Position numbers and translations under genes: made by a program
Shown here: one piece after another, positions 7,618 to 44,442 of the stretch
Position numbering within the stretch: position 1 is the stretch's first letter
How the letters are laid out: each line of letters begins with the position of its first letter
Source: Lachnospiraceae bacterium
GTDB taxonomy: Bacteria > Bacillota > Clostridia > Lachnospirales > Lachnospiraceae
Direction: 5' to 3'
Length of the DNA stretch: 44,585 nt
Assembly (NCBI GenBank): GCA_015056925.1
Contig: SVFJ01000020.1
Coordinates: forward strand, 1-44,585
Notes under the pieces: model-generated
The model's database searches: none
Told to the model about the DNA's origin: nothing
Seen by the model: only the letters and a program-made list of their open reading frames with translations

Positions 7618-8472
7618 CTACACTCCATCTCTCTCATTTATCATGATAAATCTCTCTAAAAAACGATTCACAAGCGCTCCAAAGAAAAAAATATACATAC
7701 AAAAATATAGCCAAATCATTACTATCACTACCGTTGCCAAGCTCCCGTACATGGAAAATCCCCCTCCATAATCAATATAAACGGAAAATAAAAAGGAATA
7801 CAGCGTCCATAAAACAGCCGTAAATACCGCTCCCGGAAGCTGTTTAAACCACGGCATACGGGTATTGGGTAGTACACAGTACAACGAGCAAAAGGTTAAT
7901 GCCAGCAGGCATGCAACCAGCACATGGCGTAAAGGCTTTAACCAACGCCAGATTCCACCAAGGAACACATAATTGGGAATCAAAGCATCTGCCGCTGCAT
8001 TCCCAAATACAAGCAAGCCGGCAGAAAGTGCAATCGCAAGCAGTAAAAACAATGTATAACCTATTGCTCTGATTCGAAGCTTTAGAAAACCTCTGGACTC
8101 CTGCACCTGATAAACAAAATTTAGTCCTCTCATCAACGCAAGTACCCCCTTGGATGAAGACCAAACTGCTACCAATGCTGTTACTGACAGCAGTGTCACT
8201 GACCTTCTTTGCGACCCTTGCATAACAGAAAGCAAAAACTCGTAAATCCTTTCCGGTATGATTGCCTGTGATACGTTGGATGTTTCCTGCCTTATGAACT
8301 GCGAATAGGGTATCAGTTCAAAGATAATCATCCCCATCGGAATCACAGATAAAAAAATAAAAAATCCCGCACTGGAGGCATGCGCGCTGACACATGCCTC
8401 CTGCAGCAACCTCTGCAATAGCGTAACATATTTTCTTCTATTTTGATATAGTTTACATAATATTTTCATCAT
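7618..8472 (-). CDS. YihY/BrkB family inner membrane protein
   Basis: A 284-residue protein with about six hydrophobic segments spread along its length. ASSAGFFIFLSVIPMGMII near residue 33 and the middle section with SSSKGVLALMRGLNFVY are typical of the YihY/BrkB family (once wrongly called RNase BN). The family's biochemical role is not settled; some members affect envelope integrity or lipid/solute export. Two ATG codons in a row start the gene, overlapping the end of the SpoIID-like gene by about 20 bases. It sits six bases before the BceR-like gene, so it is probably co-transcribed with both. Confidence 0.88.
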   Translation of the reverse strand: MMKILCKLYQNRRKYVTLLQRLLQEACVSAHASSAGFFIFLSVIPMGMIIFELIPYSQFIRQETSNVSQAIIPERIYEFLLSVMQGSQRRSVTLLSVTALVAVWSSSKGVLALMRGLNFVYQVQESRGFLKLRIRAIGYTLFLLLAIALSAGLLVFGNAAADALIPNYVFLGGIWRWLKPLRHVLVACLLALTFCSLYCVLPNTRMPWFKQLPGAVFTAVLWTLYSFLFSVYIDYGGGFSMYGSLATVVIVMIWLYFCMYIFFFGALVNRFLERFIMINERDGV

Positions 8473-9964
8473 GTATTTCTACTTCTACACCTTCATAATA
8501 ATATTTCAAGATTTCCTCTGCACAAAAGCCTTCATTTGCAAGACATTTTGCACCATTCTGGGACATTCCTACTCCATGCCCCATACCACCACCGCTAAGT
8601 ACCAGCTTCATCAATTGCTTTCCTTCATACAGCTTTTCCATTTCAAAATATGCACTGGGAAGCAACTCTCCTACCTGATATGTAGAGCCATCCTGTTTCG
8701 TTACACATGTATCAGACAGAGCCAATACATTTCGTACCAGCTGCTGAGATTCTACTCTGACAGAATAATTCTTGGTTTTGATTGTCAGTGCCGATACTAA
8801 GCTGTTTTTCTCATTCTGAACTGTCTTTATATCGTAAATCACGGTATCCTTTAACAGACTGTCCAAACTCTTTGGTTTTGGTTCTATAACTATTTTATCC
8901 TGATTGCTTTGTCCATATTCATAGATACGCGTCAAAAGCTCCTTGGGACTTGCAATATTTAACACACAGCTCCATCGATACCAAGCCTCATCACATTCCA
9001 CAAACACATTACTCCCGGGTAATGTGTAAGACTTCACCTGCAAATACGGAAGGCTCTCTTCGCTTCCCCATACCTCATAACCTGCACCGAAGCCACATGA
9101 GGTGGAATAATAAAAGGATTCTATCAATCCCCCCTGATAAGTAATTACCTTCCCTTGAGTGTTGTCCACCGCCTGACACACCGACTCATTTTCCTGTAAA
9201 TTCTTATACACCTGATAGGCCGTGCTGTCATTCACATGTGCCTCCCACTCCGGATAAGCATAGTCTGACATGTGATAATAGGTATAGGTTCTGGCTGATA
9301 TCGCCTGCGCCTCCAAAGCTGCCATAGGATAAGACGCCGGCATCTCGCTTGGAACCACACCGTACAGATATTGTTCTACAGGTAGCTCATTCACTACCAC
9401 AATACCATTTTCCGTACCAAAGCATTCTAATTTTCCTCGGTAGCTTACCTCATCCTGTCTTGCAATGTTAGCTAGCCTAAGTTCTCCGCCATTTCGCGCT
9501 TCAATCTGTATACTCTTCCCATTTAACTTATCTGCCAAGATAGTGATTTCCTCCATTGATGAGTGCAGATATTCGACCTCATCCATTACTATGTAAAAAT
9601 CCTCATTACAGGATAATTTTAGGCTACTATGATAAATCCCCTGGTAATTGGTTGTCATCAAAAGTACTCGAATGCTACCTGCATTCTGTTCCTCTTCATT
9701 ATCTACCTTTTTAACTATCTCCATCTCCTGAATCTGTGGCTGCTCATTCATAACTGCATCACTTTCTATTTCTGCTAATTTTCCAGTCGCCGCATCATTC
9801 CCTACTACCTCGCCTCTCGACTCCACTGTATTCTCAGTAATTACCACTCCTGTTAGTTTATCTTCAAGTTCACCACTTGTCCTTAACACCACCGCACTAT
9901 AAATCCCTATTGCTACTCCAATCCACATCAGTACAATTACTAATTTTAAAAATACACCCCGCAT
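8453..9964 (-). CDS. SpoIID/LytB domain protein, membrane-anchored
   Basis: A 503-residue protein anchored by one N-terminal hydrophobic segment (about residues 5-25), then a low-complexity acidic stretch and the SpoIID domain. The motif LYGVVPSEMPASYPMAALEAQAISARTY holds the catalytic glutamate (VPSEMP) of SpoIID lytic transglycosylases, which trim glycan strands lacking stem peptides; GMGHGVGMSQNGA near the C-terminus is the family's second signature. The start at 9962-9964 is preferred because GAGAGG precedes it; an ATG seven codons upstream has no ribosome site. It begins the run that continues with YihY and the Bce-type genes, so a vegetative wall-remodelling role is as likely as sporulation. 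Confidence 0.88.
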   Translation of the reverse strand: MRGVFLKLVIVLMWIGVAIGIYSAVVLRTSGELEDKLTGVVITENTVESRGEVVGNDAATGKLAEIESDAVMNEQPQIQEMEIVKKVDNEEEQNAGSIRVLLMTTNYQGIYHSSLKLSCNEDFYIVMDEVEYLHSSMEEITILADKLNGKSIQIEARNGGELRLANIARQDEVSYRGKLECFGTENGIVVVNELPVEQYLYGVVPSEMPASYPMAALEAQAISARTYTYYHMSDYAYPEWEAHVNDSTAYQVYKNLQENESVCQAVDNTQGKVITYQGGLIESFYYSTSCGFGAGYEVWGSEESLPYLQVKSYTLPGSNVFVECDEAWYRWSCVLNIASPKELLTRIYEYGQSNQDKIVIEPKPKSLDSLLKDTVIYDIKTVQNEKNSLVSALTIKTKNYSVRVESQQLVRNVLALSDTCVTKQDGSTYQVGELLPSAYFEMEKLYEGKQLMKLVLSGGGMGHGVGMSQNGAKCLANEGFCAEEILKYYYEGVEVEIHDENIM

Positions 9965-9991
9965 TTTGTTTTCTACCTCTCTCATACTTGT

Positions 9992-10011: not shown

Positions 10012-10076
10012 TTTTGATTTAGAATACACAATATTACATCACTTTTTCTCTCTAAAAGCCCTCTAATTACCATTTT

Positions 10077-10246
10077 TGTGTATATAGAAAAAAATCACCT
10101 CTCTATATACAATTTTTCCGGACTTTTCTGTACATATATCTTCAATTTTTTCATATATACACAAACTCCTTCAAAAACTCCCTTTTTCAACTAGAAATTC
10201 GTTAAAAATTGTGTATAAAAAGAGAAAAAATCTCTATATGTACAAA
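10077..10246. repeat. cluster of TGTATATA-like elements upstream of the SpoIID-like gene
   Basis: This AT-rich stretch holds at least six near-copies of the palindrome half (TGTATATA or its complement): about 10078-10087, 10104-10111, 10129-10138, 10154-10163, 10209-10219 and 10235-10246, in both orientations. Base composition alone produces some of these, so a regulatory array is only a possibility. Confidence 0.35.
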
Positions 10247-10260
10247 AGACTATCTGACCT

Positions 10261-10293
10261 AAAACAGAAAAGGTGCCGCCCTAAGGCAGCACC
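10261..10293 (-). terminator. second (tandem) minus-strand terminator after the RNA gene
   Basis: GGTGC (10272-10276) with GCC (10278-10280) pairs with GGC (10285-10287) and GCACC (10289-10293) around the loop CTAA, with one mismatch. On the minus strand it is followed by TTTTCTGTTTT. It lies 54 bases beyond the terminator at 10348-10377. Confidence 0.75.
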
Positions 10294-10347
10294 CTCTTAT
10301 GTACCTATCCGCAAGAAAAATTTCTAACGTTTCCTCTTTACTTGTAC

Positions 10348-10377
10348 AAAAAGCAGCCCATAACAGGCTGCTTTTTT
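10348..10377 (-). terminator. Rho-independent terminator of the putative RNA gene
   Basis: GCAGCC (10353-10358) pairs with GGCTGC (10366-10371) around a 7-base loop, flanked by A5 on one side and T6 on the other. The minus-strand transcript from the promoter at 10564-10592 would end here. The plus-strand direction is also possible but has no gene to terminate. Confidence 0.8.
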
Positions 10378-10557
10378 CTTCTGTAAACTCCAAAATGCAC
10401 TTCTGTATTTTGACTCCTAGCCAATGCTAGGTGGGCGACCGCAACCATCTCTCTGCCGTCCCCTGACCATAATGGGGGGCATGACATCAATCAGGCAATA
10501 TAGGAATCCCGTTTAAAGTGATGTAGGATCAAAATAACAAGAACTACATCTCGGATT
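10348..10557 (-). ncRNA. putative autonomous structured RNA, about 210 nt
   Basis: No convincing protein-coding frame exists here, yet a good promoter, a GC-rich foldable body and a terminator are lined up on the minus strand. The body can form a closing stem TTTTGATCCTA (about 10523-10533) with TAGGAGTCAAAA (about 10415-10426), with one bulged base. Inside are a hairpin with TGCCCC/GGGG arms near 10464-10492 and a perfect CCTAGC-ATTG-GCTAGG hairpin near 10423-10438. The 5' end can instead pair GATGTAG with CTACATC, which competes with the closing stem. Length and independence would fit 6S RNA or the raiA-type clostridial RNA, but I cannot assign a family by eye. Confidence 0.6.
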
Positions 10558-10563
10558 ACCCTT

Positions 10564-10592
10564 ATTATACCCACTCAAGCCTAAAATAGCAA
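10564..10592 (-). promoter_or_regulatory. promoter of the putative structured RNA
   Basis: Minus-strand TTGCTA (10587-10592) and a perfect TATAAT (10564-10569) are spaced by exactly 17 bases. Initiation is expected near 10557. The nearest upstream gene ends at 10731. No operator is evident in the remaining AT-rich gap at 10593-10730. Confidence 0.75.
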
Positions 10593-10730: not shown

Positions 10731-13244
10731 TTATGCCTCTTCCTCCCTTTTGGCAAATGTGAGTATTACCTTAAACAAATCTCCATCCACATGAATTGTA
10801 AGCTCTGCCTTCATTAAATCCATTAGGCTCTGAGCAATAGCCAGTCCCAATCCATGTCCTTCAGAGTTTCTTGACTTATCCCCTCTGATAAAACGCTCCT
10901 TCAGTTCTTCTCCGGTAAGATTCAACGGATCCTTAGACATATTCCTAAAAGTCAATGTAACCTGGCTACCAAATTCCTCTAGATGAACATACACACGCGA
11001 AAGTGGCTGTGCATACTTTAAAATATTATTCATCAGATTATCTACAACCCGCCATAAATGTCTTCCATCCGCCCGGATATATACAGGCTCCTCAGGCTTA
11101 TGTATAATCAGCTCCAAGCCATTTGCCGCAAACTTCTCCTCAAATTCTCCTACCGTCTGTGTCAAAAACACTCCCGCCTCAAGAGTTTCCATATTTACAG
11201 CAAGATTTCCTGTTGAAGCTTTTGATGCCTCCACCAAATCCTCAATCAGCTTCTTGAGCTTAGAAGACTGTCTTTGCAACACCTCTATGTACTCTGATGC
11301 ATTCTCGTTCTGCAAATCTTCTTTCCCCAGCAAATCCACATAATTAATAATAGAAGTCAATGGTGTCTTAATATCATGAGAAACATTCGTAATCAGCTCC
11401 GTCTTAAAATGCTCACTCTTCATGCGCTCCTCAACAGCAAGAGAAATACCATTTCCAATCTTATTAAGATTGTCACCATGCTTCTTAAACTCCCAGAACA
11501 TCTTACTAGTATCTGTTTCATAATCAAGATTCCCCTGCGCTAGCTTCTTGCTTGCCTCCTGCAGCTGATTCATCTGTACAATCACCACAAAATATATCAC
11601 TGCTATCACAGCATCTATCAAAAGACAAATAAAGAAAATCTCTTCCGAATAGGAATTACATGCCAAAACAAATACAAAAAACATTAACAAACCGTCTACT
11701 ACCACAAATCCCACAACAGCCTTCCACACAAAGCTGATATTACGAATGAAATATCTTATAGCCTCTGCTACAACATGACAAATTCGATAGATAATAGTGT
11801 TCTTCCACAAAGTCTTGGTCTTTACTCTTACTGCAACACTTAATAAGAACAGCATTGCAAAAATCTCCATTGCAAGCACTATCATTACCGTTAAGATCCA
11901 GATAAGTTCACTAGCCTCTAAATAAAAATTATCTGAAATACAAGCTATCCCCATGCCCTCTGCACAAAAAATTGCACCTGCACAAATCTCAAATGGAATC
12001 TTATCAAAGAACCCCAACACAAGCTCTTCTTCCTTCTTCCTATGACCTGCTGCTTTCATCAAAAATACAAATGAACATACTGCAATCAAAGCAGAAATCC
12101 CCATAACTACAAACACAAGATATCGCCATTCATATGCAACCTGAAATCTTTGATTTACCACAGCATATTGACTTTGGTCAGTATCCGAGTCAAAGCTTTC
12201 CGGAATCCTTGATACTACGATATATTTCTCTGCCTCATCATGCTCTGTTACCATCAACGTATAATATTCATTCAGATAATAATTATCCTTCTGATGAATC
12301 TCAAACTCTGGTAAAGCAGAAGAGTCTATCTGTTCTAACTCTGCAGTCTCTGTCACTCTCACATTATCCAAAATAATATCTCCAATATTATAAATGCTGC
12401 ACCCCACATCCTCTAACATTGTAAAATCGAACTCAGACCCCATTCCGTCATCCGCATCACATGCAAGTACTCCTGAAATCAATTCTTTTGCGGTTTCTTC
12501 TGCTTCATCCGGTATATTCACCATCCTATAACTATGTGAATTTCCATCTGCATAGGTTGCCCACATATTCTTCAATAGATAATTATTCTTACCAAACTGA
12601 TATTCATAAATAAATATCATTGGCTCATTCTGATAGATAAAGTTAATCTGTATCTTCTTTGCAGGATAATACTCTCCTCCTGACAGATAATAAATAACCC
12701 CTGTATACTCATCATATACTATCTTCTCTGCATAATGCCCCTTTGTCTCACTTACATAAGGCGTATCCAAGTAATAAATGGTATCTCCCCACATGTCTTT
12801 TTGATTACATAAAACAGTATCCTTCGATATATAATCTACATAAAGATAGCACTCTTCCGATTCAAGTAAAGTCGGGTCAAAATTACACTCCTCATAAACT
12901 GCTGGGTCATTTGTTGATCCCTCTTCCCAATTATCTGCCTTAACAATACCATACTCAAAATCTCGCTCGGCGAAATATTCTTCCATATCTCGTCCCATAT
13001 ATGCAAGCGCCTGAGCAGAATAATTTTGATTTACTTGCCCTAGCATAGAGGTTCTAACTTCTGTATAACTCTTATGATAAAATCCCAAATCAGCCATAAA
13101 AGCCATCGCAACCATACTTACTACAAATATATTCAAACTTAAAATAAATGCAACCCAAGCAATCAACTTCAGAAATCCTGAGCTCTTCAATCTCTTCATA
13201 AGTTCCTCACTTTCCAACTCCATAAAATAGAGTTTATCTTTTAC
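10731..13244 (-). CDS. sensor histidine kinase with large extracellular domain and multiple membrane segments
   Basis: About 837 residues from a GTG start preceded by GGAGAGG, seven bases after the regulator stop. An ATG at 13199 with GAGG is an alternative and would put the membrane segment nearer the N-terminus. One segment near residues 28-50 leads into an extracellular domain of about 330 residues that I do not recognise. Then follow about five membrane segments (roughly 385-565), a HAMP-like linker, a HisKA domain with the phospho-histidine in NVSHDIKTPL (about residue 622) and an ATPase domain with GHGLGLAIAQSL. The partner is the regulator encoded just upstream. No target gene adjoins it, so the signal is unknown. 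Confidence 0.9.
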   Translation of the reverse strand, partial: VKDKLYFMELESEELMKRLKSSGFLKLIAWVAFILSLNIFVVSMVAMAFMADLGFYHKSYTEVRTSMLGQVNQNYSAQALAYMGRDMEEYFAERDFEYGIVKADNWEEGSTNDPAVYEECNFDPTLLESEECYLYVDYISKDTVLCNQKDMWGDTIYYLDTPYVSETKGHYAEKIVYDEYTGVIYYLSGGEYYPAKKIQINFIYQNEPMIFIYEYQFGKNNYLLKNMWATYADGNSHSYRMVNIPDEAEETAKELISGVLACDADDGMGSEFDFTMLEDVGCSIYNIGDIILDNVRVTETAELEQIDSSALPEFEIHQKDNYYLNEYYTLMVTEHDEAEKYIVVSRIPESFDSDTDQSQYAVVNQRFQVAYEWRYLVFVVMGISALIAVCSFVFLMKAAGHRKKEEELVLGFFDKIPFEICAGAIFCAEGMGIACISDNFYLEASELIWILTVMIVLAMEIFAMLFLLSVAVRVKTKTLWKNTIIYRICHVVAEAIRYFIRNISFVWKAVVGFVVVDGLLMFFVFVLACNSYSEEIFFICLLIDAVIAVIYFVVIVQMNQLQEASKKLAQGNLDYETDTSKMFWEFKKHGDNLNKIGNGISLAVEERMKSEHFKTELITNVSHDIKTPLTSIINYVDLLGKEDLQNENASEYIEVLQRQSSKLKKLIEDLVEASKASTGNLAVNMETLEAGVFLTQTVGEFEEKFAANGLELIIHKPEEPVYIRADGRHLWRVVDNLMNNILKYAQPLSRVYVHLEEFGSQVTLTFRNMSKDPLNLTGEELKERFIRGDKSRNSEGHGLGLAIAQSLMDLMKAELTIHVDGDLFKVILTFAKREEEA

Positions 13245-13251
13245 ACATAGT

Positions 13252-13938
13252 CTACCTCTCCATCTTATAACCATGTCCCCATACTGCCTTAAGGTGCTTT
13301 GGCTCTGCCGGATTATACTCTAGCTTCTCACGCAGGTGTCTAATATGCACCGCTACCGTATTCTCAGCACCATATGGATTGTCCTTCCAAACCCGCGTAT
13401 AGATTTGATGCGGTGAAAATACCTGTCCGGGATGCTCCATCAAAAGCTTAAGGATCTCATACTCTGTTCTGGTAAGCGAAATCTTCTCCCCATCCAGCGT
13501 CACTTCCTTCGCTCTATCATCCAATTCGATACCACCTATGGTATATACATCCTTCTCTGCCTTCACATTACCACCCAAAAGTGTATAACGTCTTAGCTGT
13601 GACTTTACTCTTGCCTGAAGCTCCACAGGATTAAATGGCTTAGTAATATAATCATCTGCACCAATTGTAAGCCCCAGCACCTTGTCTGTATCTTCACTCT
13701 TTGCAGTCAATAATATTACAGGTACATTACTTCTTTCTCTAATTTTCACCATCGCAGTGATACCATCCATCTGAGGCATCATAATATCCATCAACACCAA
13801 ATGAATCTCATGCTCCTCTATAATCTGTATCGCTTCCATACCACTATATGCAGCAAACACTTCATATCCCTCCGCGGTAAGATATATCTTCAATGCCGAT
13901 ACAATGTCTTTCTCATCATCACATACAAGTATATTCAT
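13252..13938 (-). CDS. OmpR/PhoB-family response regulator
   Basis: A 228-residue regulator. The receiver domain has VCDDEKD, phospho-acceptor aspartate in LVLMDIMMPQMDG (about residue 50), threonine in LLTAKSE and lysine in TKPFNP. The C-terminal winged helix ends with VAVHIRHLREKLE and VWGHGYKMER, a complete OmpR/PhoB DNA-binding domain closest in appearance to the VanR/PhoP subgroup. It is the first gene of a two-gene unit with the large kinase. A candidate promoter lies at 13989-14017. Target genes cannot be read from sequence; the pectate lyase gene next door is transcribed toward this unit and ends in a terminator, so no link can be assumed. Confidence 0.93.
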   Translation of the reverse strand: MNILVCDDEKDIVSALKIYLTAEGYEVFAAYSGMEAIQIIEEHEIHLVLMDIMMPQMDGITAMVKIRERSNVPVILLTAKSEDTDKVLGLTIGADDYITKPFNPVELQARVKSQLRRYTLLGGNVKAEKDVYTIGGIELDDRAKEVTLDGEKISLTRTEYEILKLLMEHPGQVFSPHQIYTRVWKDNPYGAENTVAVHIRHLREKLEYNPAEPKHLKAVWGHGYKMER

Positions 13939-14177: not shown

Positions 14178-17100
14178 TTAGAACTCTGCGCCCAATCCAT
14201 AGCTTGCTAATGCGCTGCCGCTTGCAACCTCAAATAAACCGTTCATGTTAACGCTTCCGTCAGAATTTCTGAATACCTCATGATAATTTGTAGCATACTT
14301 ACCACTTGAGTATCCAGGAATGCTTGTGCTGACAAAGTCAGAAGCAGAAACAGAAACTACTGTTCCATCCTTTACTGCACTTCCTGTGTAAGAAGAAGAG
14401 CTTACATAGTAGAACTTGCCATTGCTGTTAGCTGCAATAGAATTCTTCAATGTTCCATAGAACTTATCAGAAGTAGCATCATCTGCATAAGACAGAAGGT
14501 TTGTATATGTAGCACCTGATGATGTTCTATAGCAGTTAAAGTTACCCTTTGATGCATATACACCATTGTTTACTGATGTACAATCCTTCATTACAAGGTC
14601 ACCACCATTACCATTATCCGTAAATCCTGCTGCTCCATTGTAGAATGCAAGACAGTTTGTTACAACGTGAGGTGTTGGGCACTGTCCATTGCTTCCGCCA
14701 AGCTTGAAGCCGTTCATATCACCGTTTGCTGAGCCTTCCGCAGTTGTCAACTTACCATTACCGAAAGCTACACAGTTCTTAATAGTTACTACACCGATAG
14801 AACCTGTTGCTGGCTTAGCATATAAATCCCAACCATCATCTGAATTACAGTATGCGATACAGCCGTCAAATACGTTACCTTCACCACATGTAAGCTTTGC
14901 TGCGAATCCATCAGCGTTCTCTGTTGTTGCCTCATCCTTATTATTGAATGAAGTACAGTTCTTAACCAAGTTATTGCTTGGCCACTGACTGATACTGTCT
15001 GCCGATGTATTATAACGGCTCAGCTGTAAGCCTGTATCATGATTCTCATAAAACTGACAAAGCTCAATAATGTTGTTATTTCCTGAAAGGAGCATACCAT
15101 TATCGCCTGCATCCTTAATATCAATATCATAGAAATACCAGTAATCACCATCAAGTACGATACCTCTATTAGAGCTGCTCTCTGCCATACCTGTGAAATC
15201 AAGTGTTACTGTACCACCATTACTTCTAACAGTCTTGTATGCGCCTGATTTACCACAATTATTCTCATCAATCAAGATTGTGCTTGTGAAAGAATATGTT
15301 CCCGGTGCCATCCAAATAGTCTTGCCAGCTGCAATTCTACTTAAAGCTGTTACAAAATCCATAGGATCACTCTGTGAACCTGATGCACTTGACTTACCAC
15401 TTGTTGAAACATAAATATCTCCTGAAGCTGGCTGAACTGTTGTTGAAGATTCAACCTCTGAAGACTCTTCCTCTGATGGAGCTGTTGAAGATGACTCCAC
15501 TACAGAAGATGATTCTACTGTTGAAGACTCCTCCTCTGATGGATTCTCTACTGCGCCATCTGTTCCTAATACAATATAAAACAGGTTTGCTGTATCACCC
15601 TTTGTAATTGTATGTGTACCTGCCGCAAGGTCAAGTGTTAAGATACCATTTGTCAATGAATACTTAGTACCGTCCACCTTAACATTTGAACTATTTGCTG
15701 AGTTAAATACTAATGTAAGTGTTGAAGCTGCTGTTGTTGTAAATGCAACACTTGTTGATGACTCCATCTTCAAGCACTGTGTGAGTGTTAAGCCATTGTA
15801 CTTAACAGAACCCTTGCTTGTTGACAAATTACCATTAATTGTAAAGAAGCTGCTGTTCTTTCCATCATTTGTAAAGTTATGAGCATAGCTTGCTGCTGGC
15901 TGCACTGATGGTGTGCTTGATGATTCAACAGTTGAGCTTTCTTCTACTGAAGGTGCTACTGATGATGATTCTACTACCGATGAAGACTCTACTGTTGATG
16001 ACTCTTCAACTGAAGGCACAACGCTTGACTCTTCCTCTGCTTCACCTGCTCTTGTAACATCTAAGTATAAATCTACAGAGCCATTTCCAAACCACCACAT
16101 CTGTACCTGTACTGTGTCGTTTGATGAATATGGTACTACCATATCGAATGTTGCCTCTGCATTATTGTTAGCATCGCTTGAGAATGATGAGCTTAACCAT
16201 GAAATGTTTCCATTCTTTCCTGAGTTTCCACATACAGCTCCACCATACCATGTGTTACCTTTTAAAGTTGCTTTAATCTTTACTTCATCTCCAACCTTTA
16301 CGTCAGAAATATAATCGCTTAATTTCACTTCATAGTTTGTCTGTGATGTGAAAGTATATACCTTACCACCAGATACTGAAGGTGTTGAGCTTGGTGCTTC
16401 TGAGCTTTCCTCTACTGAAGGAGCCTCTGATGATGACTCTACTACCGAAGAAGACTCCTCAACGGATGGTGCTTCTGAAGATGACTCTACCACTGATGAA
16501 GATTCCTCTACTGAAGGCTCCTCTACCTCACCATTTGTTCCTAATGCAATATAGAAAAGGTTTGCTGTATCACCCTTTGTAATTGTATGTGTACCTGCCG
16601 AAAGATTCAATCCAAGTAAACCATCTGTTAATGTATACTTTGTACCGTCTACCTTAACATTCTTGCTGTTTTCAGCATTAAATACTAATACTAATGCAGC
16701 ATCTGAAGTTGTTGTAAACTTAACGCTTGTAGATGACTCCATCTTTAAGCACTGAGTAAGTGTTAAACCATTATACTTAACAGAACCCTTGCTTGTAGAT
16801 AAGTTACCTGTAATGTCAAATACACTACTGTTCTTGCCATCTGTTGTAAAGTTATGAACTACAGTTGCTGTAACTGCAGGAGCTGACGAAGACTGTGTCT
16901 CGCTTGACTCTTCCTGAGAAGGAGCTTCGCTCTGTGCTGGTGCAGATGAAGATGGAACTGTTGAAGATGATTCCTCTACATCCGGAGCCTCTACCTCTGG
17001 AGCATTACCATCTACTGAAACATTTCCTGTATAACCACCTACAGACACTAACGAAGTCTTGTATGAATTAAGTGCTGACTTCAAGCCTGAAATTACACCA

Positions 17101-18617
17101 TAATTTCTATCCTCTGAAGCGCCATCAAAGCTCCAATCAAAATCACCGCCGTTTACAAGACCTGCATACTTCTCTACTGTTACCTTAGCCGAAGTTGCTG
17201 ACTCTGCTGTATAGCTATAGAAGCCAGAACCTGTATCAAAGTTAGAATAGCTGTTTCCACCCTTAACTGTCTTATATGAGCTTGAAACCTTCTCAGTCTT
17301 TGAAGAAGCCTCATAGCAGTCAAAGTTTGTAGCTGAATCCTTATGTGTAACAGGTTTTGTTGTGTTGTCATAAGCATTACCATATGACTTAATCATACCG
17401 CCTGCATCTGATGCGATAGGCTCGCCGTCTGCAGTATCTGTACCCTGCTGAGAAATCAACATAGGACAATTTGTATCCTTAAAATAATTTGCTTCTGCAA
17501 AAATAGAACAACCTAATCTTGCAATCATACCGTACTTTGCAATACCATCGTACAGGTTGTTATAAATATGTACTGCGGATGATACACGCACCAATGGATG
17601 ACGTGAATCTGAATGGTCATACCAGTTATGATGATATGTGATGTAATTTAATGTTGTATCACCGTTACCATTCAAATGTGTCTTTCCTGTGTCCCAGAAA
17701 TGATTATATGAATGAGTTACATAAGTAGACTTCTTCGTATCAAGAGCTCCGTCACCCTTTGCCTGGTCTGCATCACTACCTGCATCTCCATAGAAGAAAT
17801 CACAGTTGTGAACCCAGATATGATCATTGCTCTGCTGAAGTCCTACATTATCACCTTCTGAACTATCAACATTCATAATACCAATGTTTCTGATTTCAAC
17901 GTTACTACTGTTCTTAAGTCTGATACCCCAGCCATTTGCTGTTGCATCTTCACCGATACCTTCAATTGTCAATCCTGCACTGTTGCGTCCATTGTCAATC
18001 AACATATCTCCGCCCTCTAAGCCAGAGTAATCTGTGATATTACCAATCAAACGAATTGCCAAAGGATAGTTTCCTTTCTTGAAGCTAGCAAGCTCTGTTG
18101 CAATAGAATTCTTTGAATTCTCTGTTACATACAGAACCTTAGCATTGCTCTTCAATGTACCGTCTTCATTGTATGCACCTGAAGCTGTACCATTTACCCA
18201 TGCAAAACCATTACGCTCATGAGCCTTAACTGTAAGGGTGCTTGTCTTGGCTGATGCAACTACGCTTCCGTTGCTTGATACAGCAACTACCTGCATCACG
18301 TAAGAACCTGCTGCAAGACCAACTGCATCTGCACGCCAGTATCCTGAATACTGACGAATTAGTTCGCTATCAAGCTGTACATATGCAGAATCTGACTGCG
18401 AAGCTCCTTTCACAAATACTGCATAGTTTGAAGCTCCACTTACAGGAGTCCATTCAACATATGCGCTTTCCAGCCAACCGGCTGCTTCTGTAATGGAAAC
18501 GGGGGTTGCTGCCATTACATTGGTTGTGCCTAACGCAGGCACTAAAGTAGTTACCAGCATTGCAAAGATTAATACCTTGGCCAACCACTTTCTAGGGGAA
18601 ATTTTTGAAACGTTCAT
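14178..18617 (-). CDS. secreted bifunctional pectate lyase, PL1 plus PL9, with repeated accessory modules
   Basis: A 1479-residue secreted protein. A signal peptide of about 36 residues ends at VMAA. A beta-sandwich resembling fibronectin III follows (about 38-135), then a PL1 pectate lyase domain (about 136-540) with the IWVHN version of the vWiDH motif and SRHPLVR, the RxPxxR motif carrying the catalytic arginine. Ser/Glu-rich linkers separate three modules: a module at about 584-695, a different one at about 749-859, and a near copy of the first at about 907-1020. A PL9 domain (about 1064-1479) has the calcium aspartates in NADGF and SDDGWD and the catalytic lysine in NGFKLGG. It cleaves de-esterified homogalacturonan outside the cell. 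No LPxTG or dockerin is visible. Confidence 0.92.
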   Translation of the reverse strand: MNVSKISPRKWLAKVLIFAMLVTTLVPALGTTNVMAATPVSITEAAGWLESAYVEWTPVSGASNYAVFVKGASQSDSAYVQLDSELIRQYSGYWRADAVGLAAGSYVMQVVAVSSNGSVVASAKTSTLTVKAHERNGFAWVNGTASGAYNEDGTLKSNAKVLYVTENSKNSIATELASFKKGNYPLAIRLIGNITDYSGLEGGDMLIDNGRNSAGLTIEGIGEDATANGWGIRLKNSSNVEIRNIGIMNVDSSEGDNVGLQQSNDHIWVHNCDFFYGDAGSDADQAKGDGALDTKKSTYVTHSYNHFWDTGKTHLNGNGDTTLNYITYHHNWYDHSDSRHPLVRVSSAVHIYNNLYDGIAKYGMIARLGCSIFAEANYFKDTNCPMLISQQGTDTADGEPIASDAGGMIKSYGNAYDNTTKPVTHKDSATNFDCYEASSKTEKVSSSYKTVKGGNSYSNFDTGSGFYSYTAESATSAKVTVEKYAGLVNGGDFDWSFDGASEDRNYGVISGLKSALNSYKTSLVSVGGYTGNVSVDGNAPEVEAPDVEESSSTVPSSSAPAQSEAPSQEESSETQSSSAPAVTATVVHNFTTDGKNSSVFDITGNLSTSKGSVKYNGLTLTQCLKMESSTSVKFTTTSDAALVLVFNAENSKNVKVDGTKYTLTDGLLGLNLSAGTHTITKGDTANLFYIALGTNGEVEEPSVEESSSVVESSSEAPSVEESSSVVESSSEAPSVEESSEAPSSTPSVSGGKVYTFTSQTNYEVKLSDYISDVKVGDEVKIKATLKGNTWYGGAVCGNSGKNGNISWLSSSFSSDANNNAEATFDMVVPYSSNDTVQVQMWWFGNGSVDLYLDVTRAGEAEEESSVVPSVEESSTVESSSVVESSSVAPSVEESSTVESSSTPSVQPAASYAHNFTNDGKNSSFFTINGNLSTSKGSVKYNGLTLTQCLKMESSTSVAFTTTAASTLTLVFNSANSSNVKVDGTKYSLTNGILTLDLAAGTHTITKGDTANLFYIVLGTDGAVENPSEEESSTVESSSVVESSSTAPSEEESSEVESSTTVQPASGDIYVSTSGKSSASGSQSDPMDFVTALSRIAAGKTIWMAPGTYSFTSTILIDENNCGKSGAYKTVRSNGGTVTLDFTGMAESSSNRGIVLDGDYWYFYDIDIKDAGDNGMLLSGNNNIIELCQFYENHDTGLQLSRYNTSADSISQWPSNNLVKNCTSFNNKDEATTENADGFAAKLTCGEGNVFDGCIAYCNSDDGWDLYAKPATGSIGVVTIKNCVAFGNGKLTTAEGSANGDMNGFKLGGSNGQCPTPHVVTNCLAFYNGAAGFTDNGNGGDLVMKDCTSVNNGVYASKGNFNCYRTSSGATYTNLLSYADDATSDKFYGTLKNSIAANSNGKFYYVSSSSYTGSAVKDGTVVSVSASDFVSTSIPGYSSGKYATNYHEVFRNSDGSVNMNGLFEVASGSALASYGLGAEF

Positions 18618-44212: not shown

Positions 44213-44442
44213 GCGCTCCCACTAACAGGTTTCATTCGAAAGCGAGAGCTACGGGCTAAGAGTTTCTAGGTGCTTTTATTTAAGAGCTCTCTATTCACGG
44301 AACCAGCGCATATTCGACATCCGTGTCTCACTATGCGCCTAGCGCCTTCATCCAGGCGGCGCTTTCCTATATACTCTAAAAGCACTAAGAAACTCTAACA
44401 CCCTGCGCCGGCTTTTTACATGAAACCTGTTAGTGCTTGCGC
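44213..44442. repeat. 230-bp nested inverted-repeat element
   Basis: Outer arms: GCGC plus a perfect 16-bp CACTAACAGGTTTCAT (44220-44235) with its complement (44420-44435). Inner arms: a 19-bp pair with two mismatches (44259-44277 and 44378-44396). The centre holds two hairpins, GCGCATA/TATGCGC (44306-44338) and AGCGCC/GGCGCT (44341-44363). There is no convincing coding frame. It may be a miniature inverted-repeat mobile element or a structured RNA. The remaining bases to the window end (44443-44585) show nothing recognisable. Confidence 0.85.

Follow-up and report, generated by a model that had tools for sequence, protein, structure and literature searches.

A structured RNA gene that has its own promoter and terminator is found on the minus strand of the window (the whole 44,585-nucleotide stretch of DNA analysed here), flanked by genes for a histidine kinase and a SpoIID-domain protein. 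The features at the locus are as follows.

10731-13274, same strand as the RNA gene (-): histidine kinase gene, upstream
10587..10592 (-): -35 box TTGCTA; the 29 other genus loci have TTGATA at the aligned position
10564..10569 (-): -10 box TATAAT; the aligned box is TATACT in 24 and TATAAT in 6 of 30 genus loci, this one included
10348..10557 (-): RNA gene assigned to 6S RNA by RF00013 and a genus model; predicted primary transcript of about 210 nt, its ends placed from the promoter and terminator
10545..10555 (-): closing stem P1, 5' strand, pairing with 10399-10389 (helix 1: paired in 100% of cells, with changes on both sides in 2 pairs)
10529..10538 (-): stem P2, 5' strand, pairing with 10413-10405 (helix 3: paired in 96.2% of cells, with changes on both sides in 3 pairs)
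10523..10536 (-): predicted pRNA template, by comparison with Bacillus subtilis 6S-1 RNA; product GUAGGAUCAAAAUA, start opposite C10523
10511..10528 (-): central bubble, 5' side; unpaired in the consensus fold, partly paired in the single-sequence fold
10433..10510 (-): apical arm, helices 4 to 8, with GGG/CCC at its base (10510-10508 / 10435-10433)
10416..10431 (-): 3'-bubble hairpin CCTAGC-ATTG-GCTAGG (helix 9: paired in 100% of cells, with changes on both sides in no pair)
10405..10413 (-): stem P2, 3' strand, pairing with 10538-10529
10389..10399 (-): closing stem P1, 3' strand, pairing with 10555-10545
10348..10376 (-): intrinsic terminator, a near-symmetric hairpin listed on the plus strand by the scan
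10268..10297 (-): second terminator-like hairpin, from the terminator scan
8453-9985: SpoIID-domain protein gene, downstream

The promoter TTGCTA-17-TATAAT is present at 10592-10564 (-). Its match to the consensus is by itself not above chance, with 2 promoter sites found against a mean of 2.5 in shuffled sequences. Both boxes are conserved across the 30 genus loci, the -35 box reading TTGCTA in this one alone. A looser promoter pattern applied to 53 named loci gave TTGATA in 30, a different box in 18 and nothing in 5, and is not taken as a count. The terminator scan found 2 hairpins against a mean of 0.4 in shuffles. On the minus strand the T run of the hairpin at 10376-10348 falls within the stem, and a hairpin with a T run is aligned at this position in the genus loci, the exception being one (L013) whose contig ends earlier. 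Six loci (L024 to L026 and L028 to L030) show, by eye, an apparent second T-run hairpin soon after the 6S terminator, unlike that of the window in sequence. Also by eye, TATATACAAAATTT-like motifs recur in the AT-rich stretch at 10020-10260, which separates the second terminator from the SpoIID gene.

Within the flanks covered, at most 1.5 kb on each side, a SpoIID gene lies downstream in 28 of the 30 genus loci and a histidine kinase gene upstream in 14 of 30, this locus being included in both counts; the RNA therefore occupies a conserved place. Two further features of the window lie outside the locus. A TwoAYGGAY RNA (RF01731), for which we know of no function, matches near the window end at 44246-44410 (-) with 80.7 bits, above its cut-off of 43. 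In the 1479-aa protein encoded at 14178-18617 (-), CBM77 modules (2 stretches) are combined with a pectate lyase domain, a Pel9A-like helix and Ser-rich linkers, and this protein is likely a secreted pectin-degrading enzyme.

A protein product was considered for the interval and rejected. A Pfam search at E 0.001 gave nothing for the 50-aa ORF at 10490-10338, and the frame that opens at the corresponding ATGTCA, found in 48 of the 53 named loci, varies between 5 and 70 codons. This agrees with the first-pass annotation, which had seen no convincing coding frame and had proposed a stand-alone structured RNA gene with its own promoter, terminator and second terminator, all of which are borne out, the last as a terminator-like hairpin.

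The same annotation had recommended a search against Rfam covariance models. At gathering thresholds, a scan of the whole window returned nothing in this interval. A permissive search of 751 bases around the locus returned 14 matches, the top one to RF00013 (6S/SsrS) at 10560-10383 (-), covering model positions 1-187 of 187 with 41.0 bits and E 8.6e-7. The next had E 0.14; the 13 others (to GibS, rimP, STnc370 and others) reach E 0.14 at best and were regarded as chance matches. The 6S match falls 5.4 bits short of the curated gathering cut-off for RF00013, 46.4 bits, which is a threshold for automatic annotation and no trait of the RNA itself; it is because of this shortfall that a default scan leaves the gene unnamed. 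RF00013 has only one match in the whole genome (3.5 Mb, 96.64% complete). A covariance model built from sequences of the genus likewise finds this locus alone in the genome, at 188.1 bits, a score to be read in the knowledge that this sequence is one of the model's 17 members.

DNA matches to the locus were found in 66 of 98 genomes, this one included, and in 32 of the 38 genomes of the genus. An independent search of the same 98 genomes with RF00013 gave matches in 87, of which 71 were above the cut-off, and in 31 of the 38 within the genus. Among these 31, the match was above the cut-off in 18 and below it in 13, the present genome being one of the latter. The DNA match overlaps a same-strand 6S match in 64 of the 66 genomes. 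In one of the two exceptions (G016) the DNA match is 84 bases long and lies at a contig end; in the other (G080) it comprises 41 bases matching the terminator part of the query and lies elsewhere in the genome than the 6S match. Counted singly, 8 of 72 DNA matches show no overlap with any 6S match, 6 of them being extra matches in genomes among the 64. The six genus genomes with neither a DNA nor a 6S match are 66 to 88% complete. Whether it scores above or below the cut-off, this is one gene at an orthologous locus.

For the reciprocal comparison, a covariance model built from the 17 genus sequences (A2 alignment) was tested on 30 RF00013-derived loci outside the genus. With default filters it recovered 29 of the 30, at 63.5 to 159.4 bits, and gave 31 matches in all, since both copies were recovered in two tandem-copy loci. 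The agreement of match ends is partly built in, as the A2 rows were trimmed at the RF00013 ends. The locus missed with default filters (L032) is the best RF00013 match of the 98-genome search; with filters off, the best match of the genus model is at its 6S place, with 25.5 bits and E 5.6e-6, followed by one of 9.9 bits. With 87.5 bits for RF00013 against 25.5 for the genus model, this sequence (L032 1501-1679, minus strand) is a 6S RNA divergent relative to this genus. The tandem pairs lie at 1274-1449 and 1501-1676 of L033 and at 1501-1678 and 1687-1863 of L035; the two genomes concerned (G079 and G092) are related and belong to one genus. Another genome (G064) has two 6S copies on different contigs.

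The predicted fold of 10558-10340 has an energy of -75.1 kcal/mol, lower than all 200 shuffled sequences (z -4.53). Covariation, which the first-pass annotation had also suggested testing on relatives, was assessed on an alignment of 32 sequences, comprising 17 of the 30 genus loci and 15 of the 30 outside loci. The RNAalifold consensus is a 6S rod made up of P1, P2, an apical arm and a bubble that is open on its 5' side and has a CCUAGC/GCUAGG hairpin on its 3' side. Its 45 pairs are formed in 98.1% of cells, and 13 of them have changed on both sides, against a mean of 6.7 in shuffles; none of the 500 shuffles reached this count. When the partners were slid, 4 to 10 pairs had changed on both sides and no more than 50.6% of cells were paired, a comparison biased toward the consensus fold, which was predicted from the same sequences. 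The stems are conserved, and covariation supports the canonical 6S fold, with its long rod, closing stem, large central bubble and apical arm. The long-range stem TTTTGATCCTA/TAGGAGTCAAAA of the first-pass annotation is real and conserved and corresponds to P2. Relative to the 16 other genus sequences, P1 has lost 5 nt from its 5' strand and 2 nt from the opposing 3' strand, and it still pairs in the single-sequence fold.

The template position of B. subtilis 6S-1 RNA (gene bsrA) matches 10536-10523 by eye. The pRNA predicted from it, GUAGGAUCAAAAUA, begins GUAGGAUC and keeps UCAAAA and GG at positions 4/5, both shared with known pRNAs. TTTTGAnCCTACA contains most of the template; across the 32 sequences it varies at n alone, which is T here and A in the others shown. 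Blocking the 14-nt template in the fold prediction opens P2, while P1 and the 3'-bubble hairpin stay in place and the energy goes from -74.3 to -65.8 kcal/mol; the helix by which the central bubble collapses in B. subtilis is absent from the fold predicted in this way. By analogy with the family, the RNA would hold the housekeeping RNA polymerase until pRNA synthesis releases the enzyme. The central bubble would mimic an open promoter and bind the sigma-A polymerase once cells stop growing. When nutrients return, the polymerase would copy the strand of the 5' bubble and P2 (10536-10523) into a short pRNA, and this synthesis would open P2 and free the polymerase. The model is taken from work on 6S RNA in which the polymerase occupies the bubble and is released as pRNA synthesis opens P2, as described in PMC8876501.

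The first-pass annotation had noted a likeness to 6S RNA and to raiA RNA, and had added that the gene could represent a new class. The likeness to 6S RNA is the answer. That the gene belongs to a new class of structured RNA, resembling 6S RNA in outline only, would fit with the silence of the Rfam scan at gathering threshold and the score below it in this genome, but it is highly improbable: the same gene exceeds the cut-off in relatives, the locus is orthologous to their 6S loci, and the genus model retrieves 6S loci elsewhere, including, with filters off, the one that it first missed. For raiA RNA, the similar size pointed out in the first-pass annotation stands against the full-length 6S match at the locus and the same reciprocal recovery, and its probability is negligible. 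RF03072 (raiA) has no match in the genome, a weak negative given that 14 control genomes gave none either. Against 6S RNA itself may be set the score under the cut-off, the two genomes in which the DNA match overlaps no 6S match, the outside locus missed at default filters and the collapse helix that was not predicted. We nonetheless regard the structured RNA gene at 10348..10557 (-) as almost certainly the sole detected 6S RNA (SsrS) gene of this Lachnospiraceae-type bacterium.

A further proposal concerned two mutually exclusive pairings of the 5' end, GATGTAG/CTACATC or TTTTGATCCTA/TAGGAGTCAAAA. Both exist in the window, and the latter is conserved. On the former, a 6S RNA might carry a species-specific 5' switch in which the pairing hides the pRNA start site, and the seven perfect pairs in the window are matched by a seven-pair run in 1.2% of 2000 letter shuffles of its upstream segment. 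Shorter complementarity is common, with at least five pairs in 27 of the 31 aligned relatives and six in 7 (G-U counted), but when the letters of three sequences were shuffled, 26 to 40% of the shuffles also gave five-pair runs. Seven pairs are reached by none of the 31 aligned relatives, and GATGTAG is absent from the relevant 36 nt in all 53 named loci. These loci are titled Lachnospiraceae, Clostridia or Roseburia (nearly all of those with a shared 39-base core being titled Lachnospiraceae); 30 repeat the genus loci, leaving 23 new ones, and one (L111) has just 9 bases upstream. Position by position, 16 of the 32 sequences can form the outermost aligned pair. The four inner pairs of a shorter version, AUGU/ACAU, form in 30/31 to 32/32 and give no covariation either way because both strands are near-invariant. 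The GATGTAG stretch stems from the 5-nt deletion in P1, and in the lowest-energy fold it is P1 and P2 that form, not this pairing. A conserved 5' switch is thus rejected, the full-length pairing being found in none of the relatives examined and five-pair runs being frequent by chance, and a species-specific one is very unlikely. The simplest reading is that GATGTAG/CTACATC is a chance by-product. We give equally long odds to the idea that the paired P1 deletions, by placing at the 5' end a GATGTAG complementary to the start of the pRNA template, have created a built-in pRNA mimic competing for the template; such a mimic would either ease release from the polymerase or block pRNA synthesis.

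The structured RNA gene is real, then, and is most likely this bacterium's copy of 6S RNA, with ordinary features. 6S homology, a 6S fold kept with covariation, and a conserved promoter and genomic place are evidenced here. 6S RNA, well known from bacteria, keeps RNA polymerase occupied as growth slows. With this assignment an apparent orphan becomes a known global regulator, a new member of an established family that narrowly misses the default threshold. One Lachnospiraceae-type genus lies at the edge of the Rfam 6S threshold, where the default cut-off would lose 13 of the 31 6S matches in its genomes. This is a small practical point of annotation and no new biology.

The locus resembles RF00013 in its full-length match, P1, P2, central bubble, 3'-bubble hairpin and apical arm, and in having its own promoter and terminator and one match in the genome; it differs in its score, 41.0 bits against 46.4, and in its shortened P1. 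In B. subtilis 6S-1 RNA, the 3'-bubble hairpin is already present in the free fold, according to PMC8876501, and the consensus fold here has the same hairpin. The pRNA given for 6S-1 in PMC12005410 is GUUCGGUCAAAACUA, and the templates align, although the predicted pRNA starts with GUAGG here and GUUCGG there, a comparison made via the published pRNA. A GUAGG start is also seen in the Aquifex pRNA. Unlike in B. subtilis, for which a collapse helix is described, none is predicted here. The 6S RNAs of lactic acid bacteria are similarly single-copy, with neighbourhood conservation at family level and GG at pRNA positions 4/5 or 5/6, that at 4/5 being described as conserved beyond the group; they usually adjoin rarA, whereas the present gene lies between the histidine kinase and SpoIID-domain genes (PMC8414754 for the lactic acid bacteria). 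Closer to the present organism, a supplementary-file legend in PMC5171806 lists 6S RNA in Clostridium phytofermentans (Lachnospiraceae) on the basis of Rfam annotation, and PMC3879012 reports 6S RNA seen by Northern blot in C. acetobutylicum.
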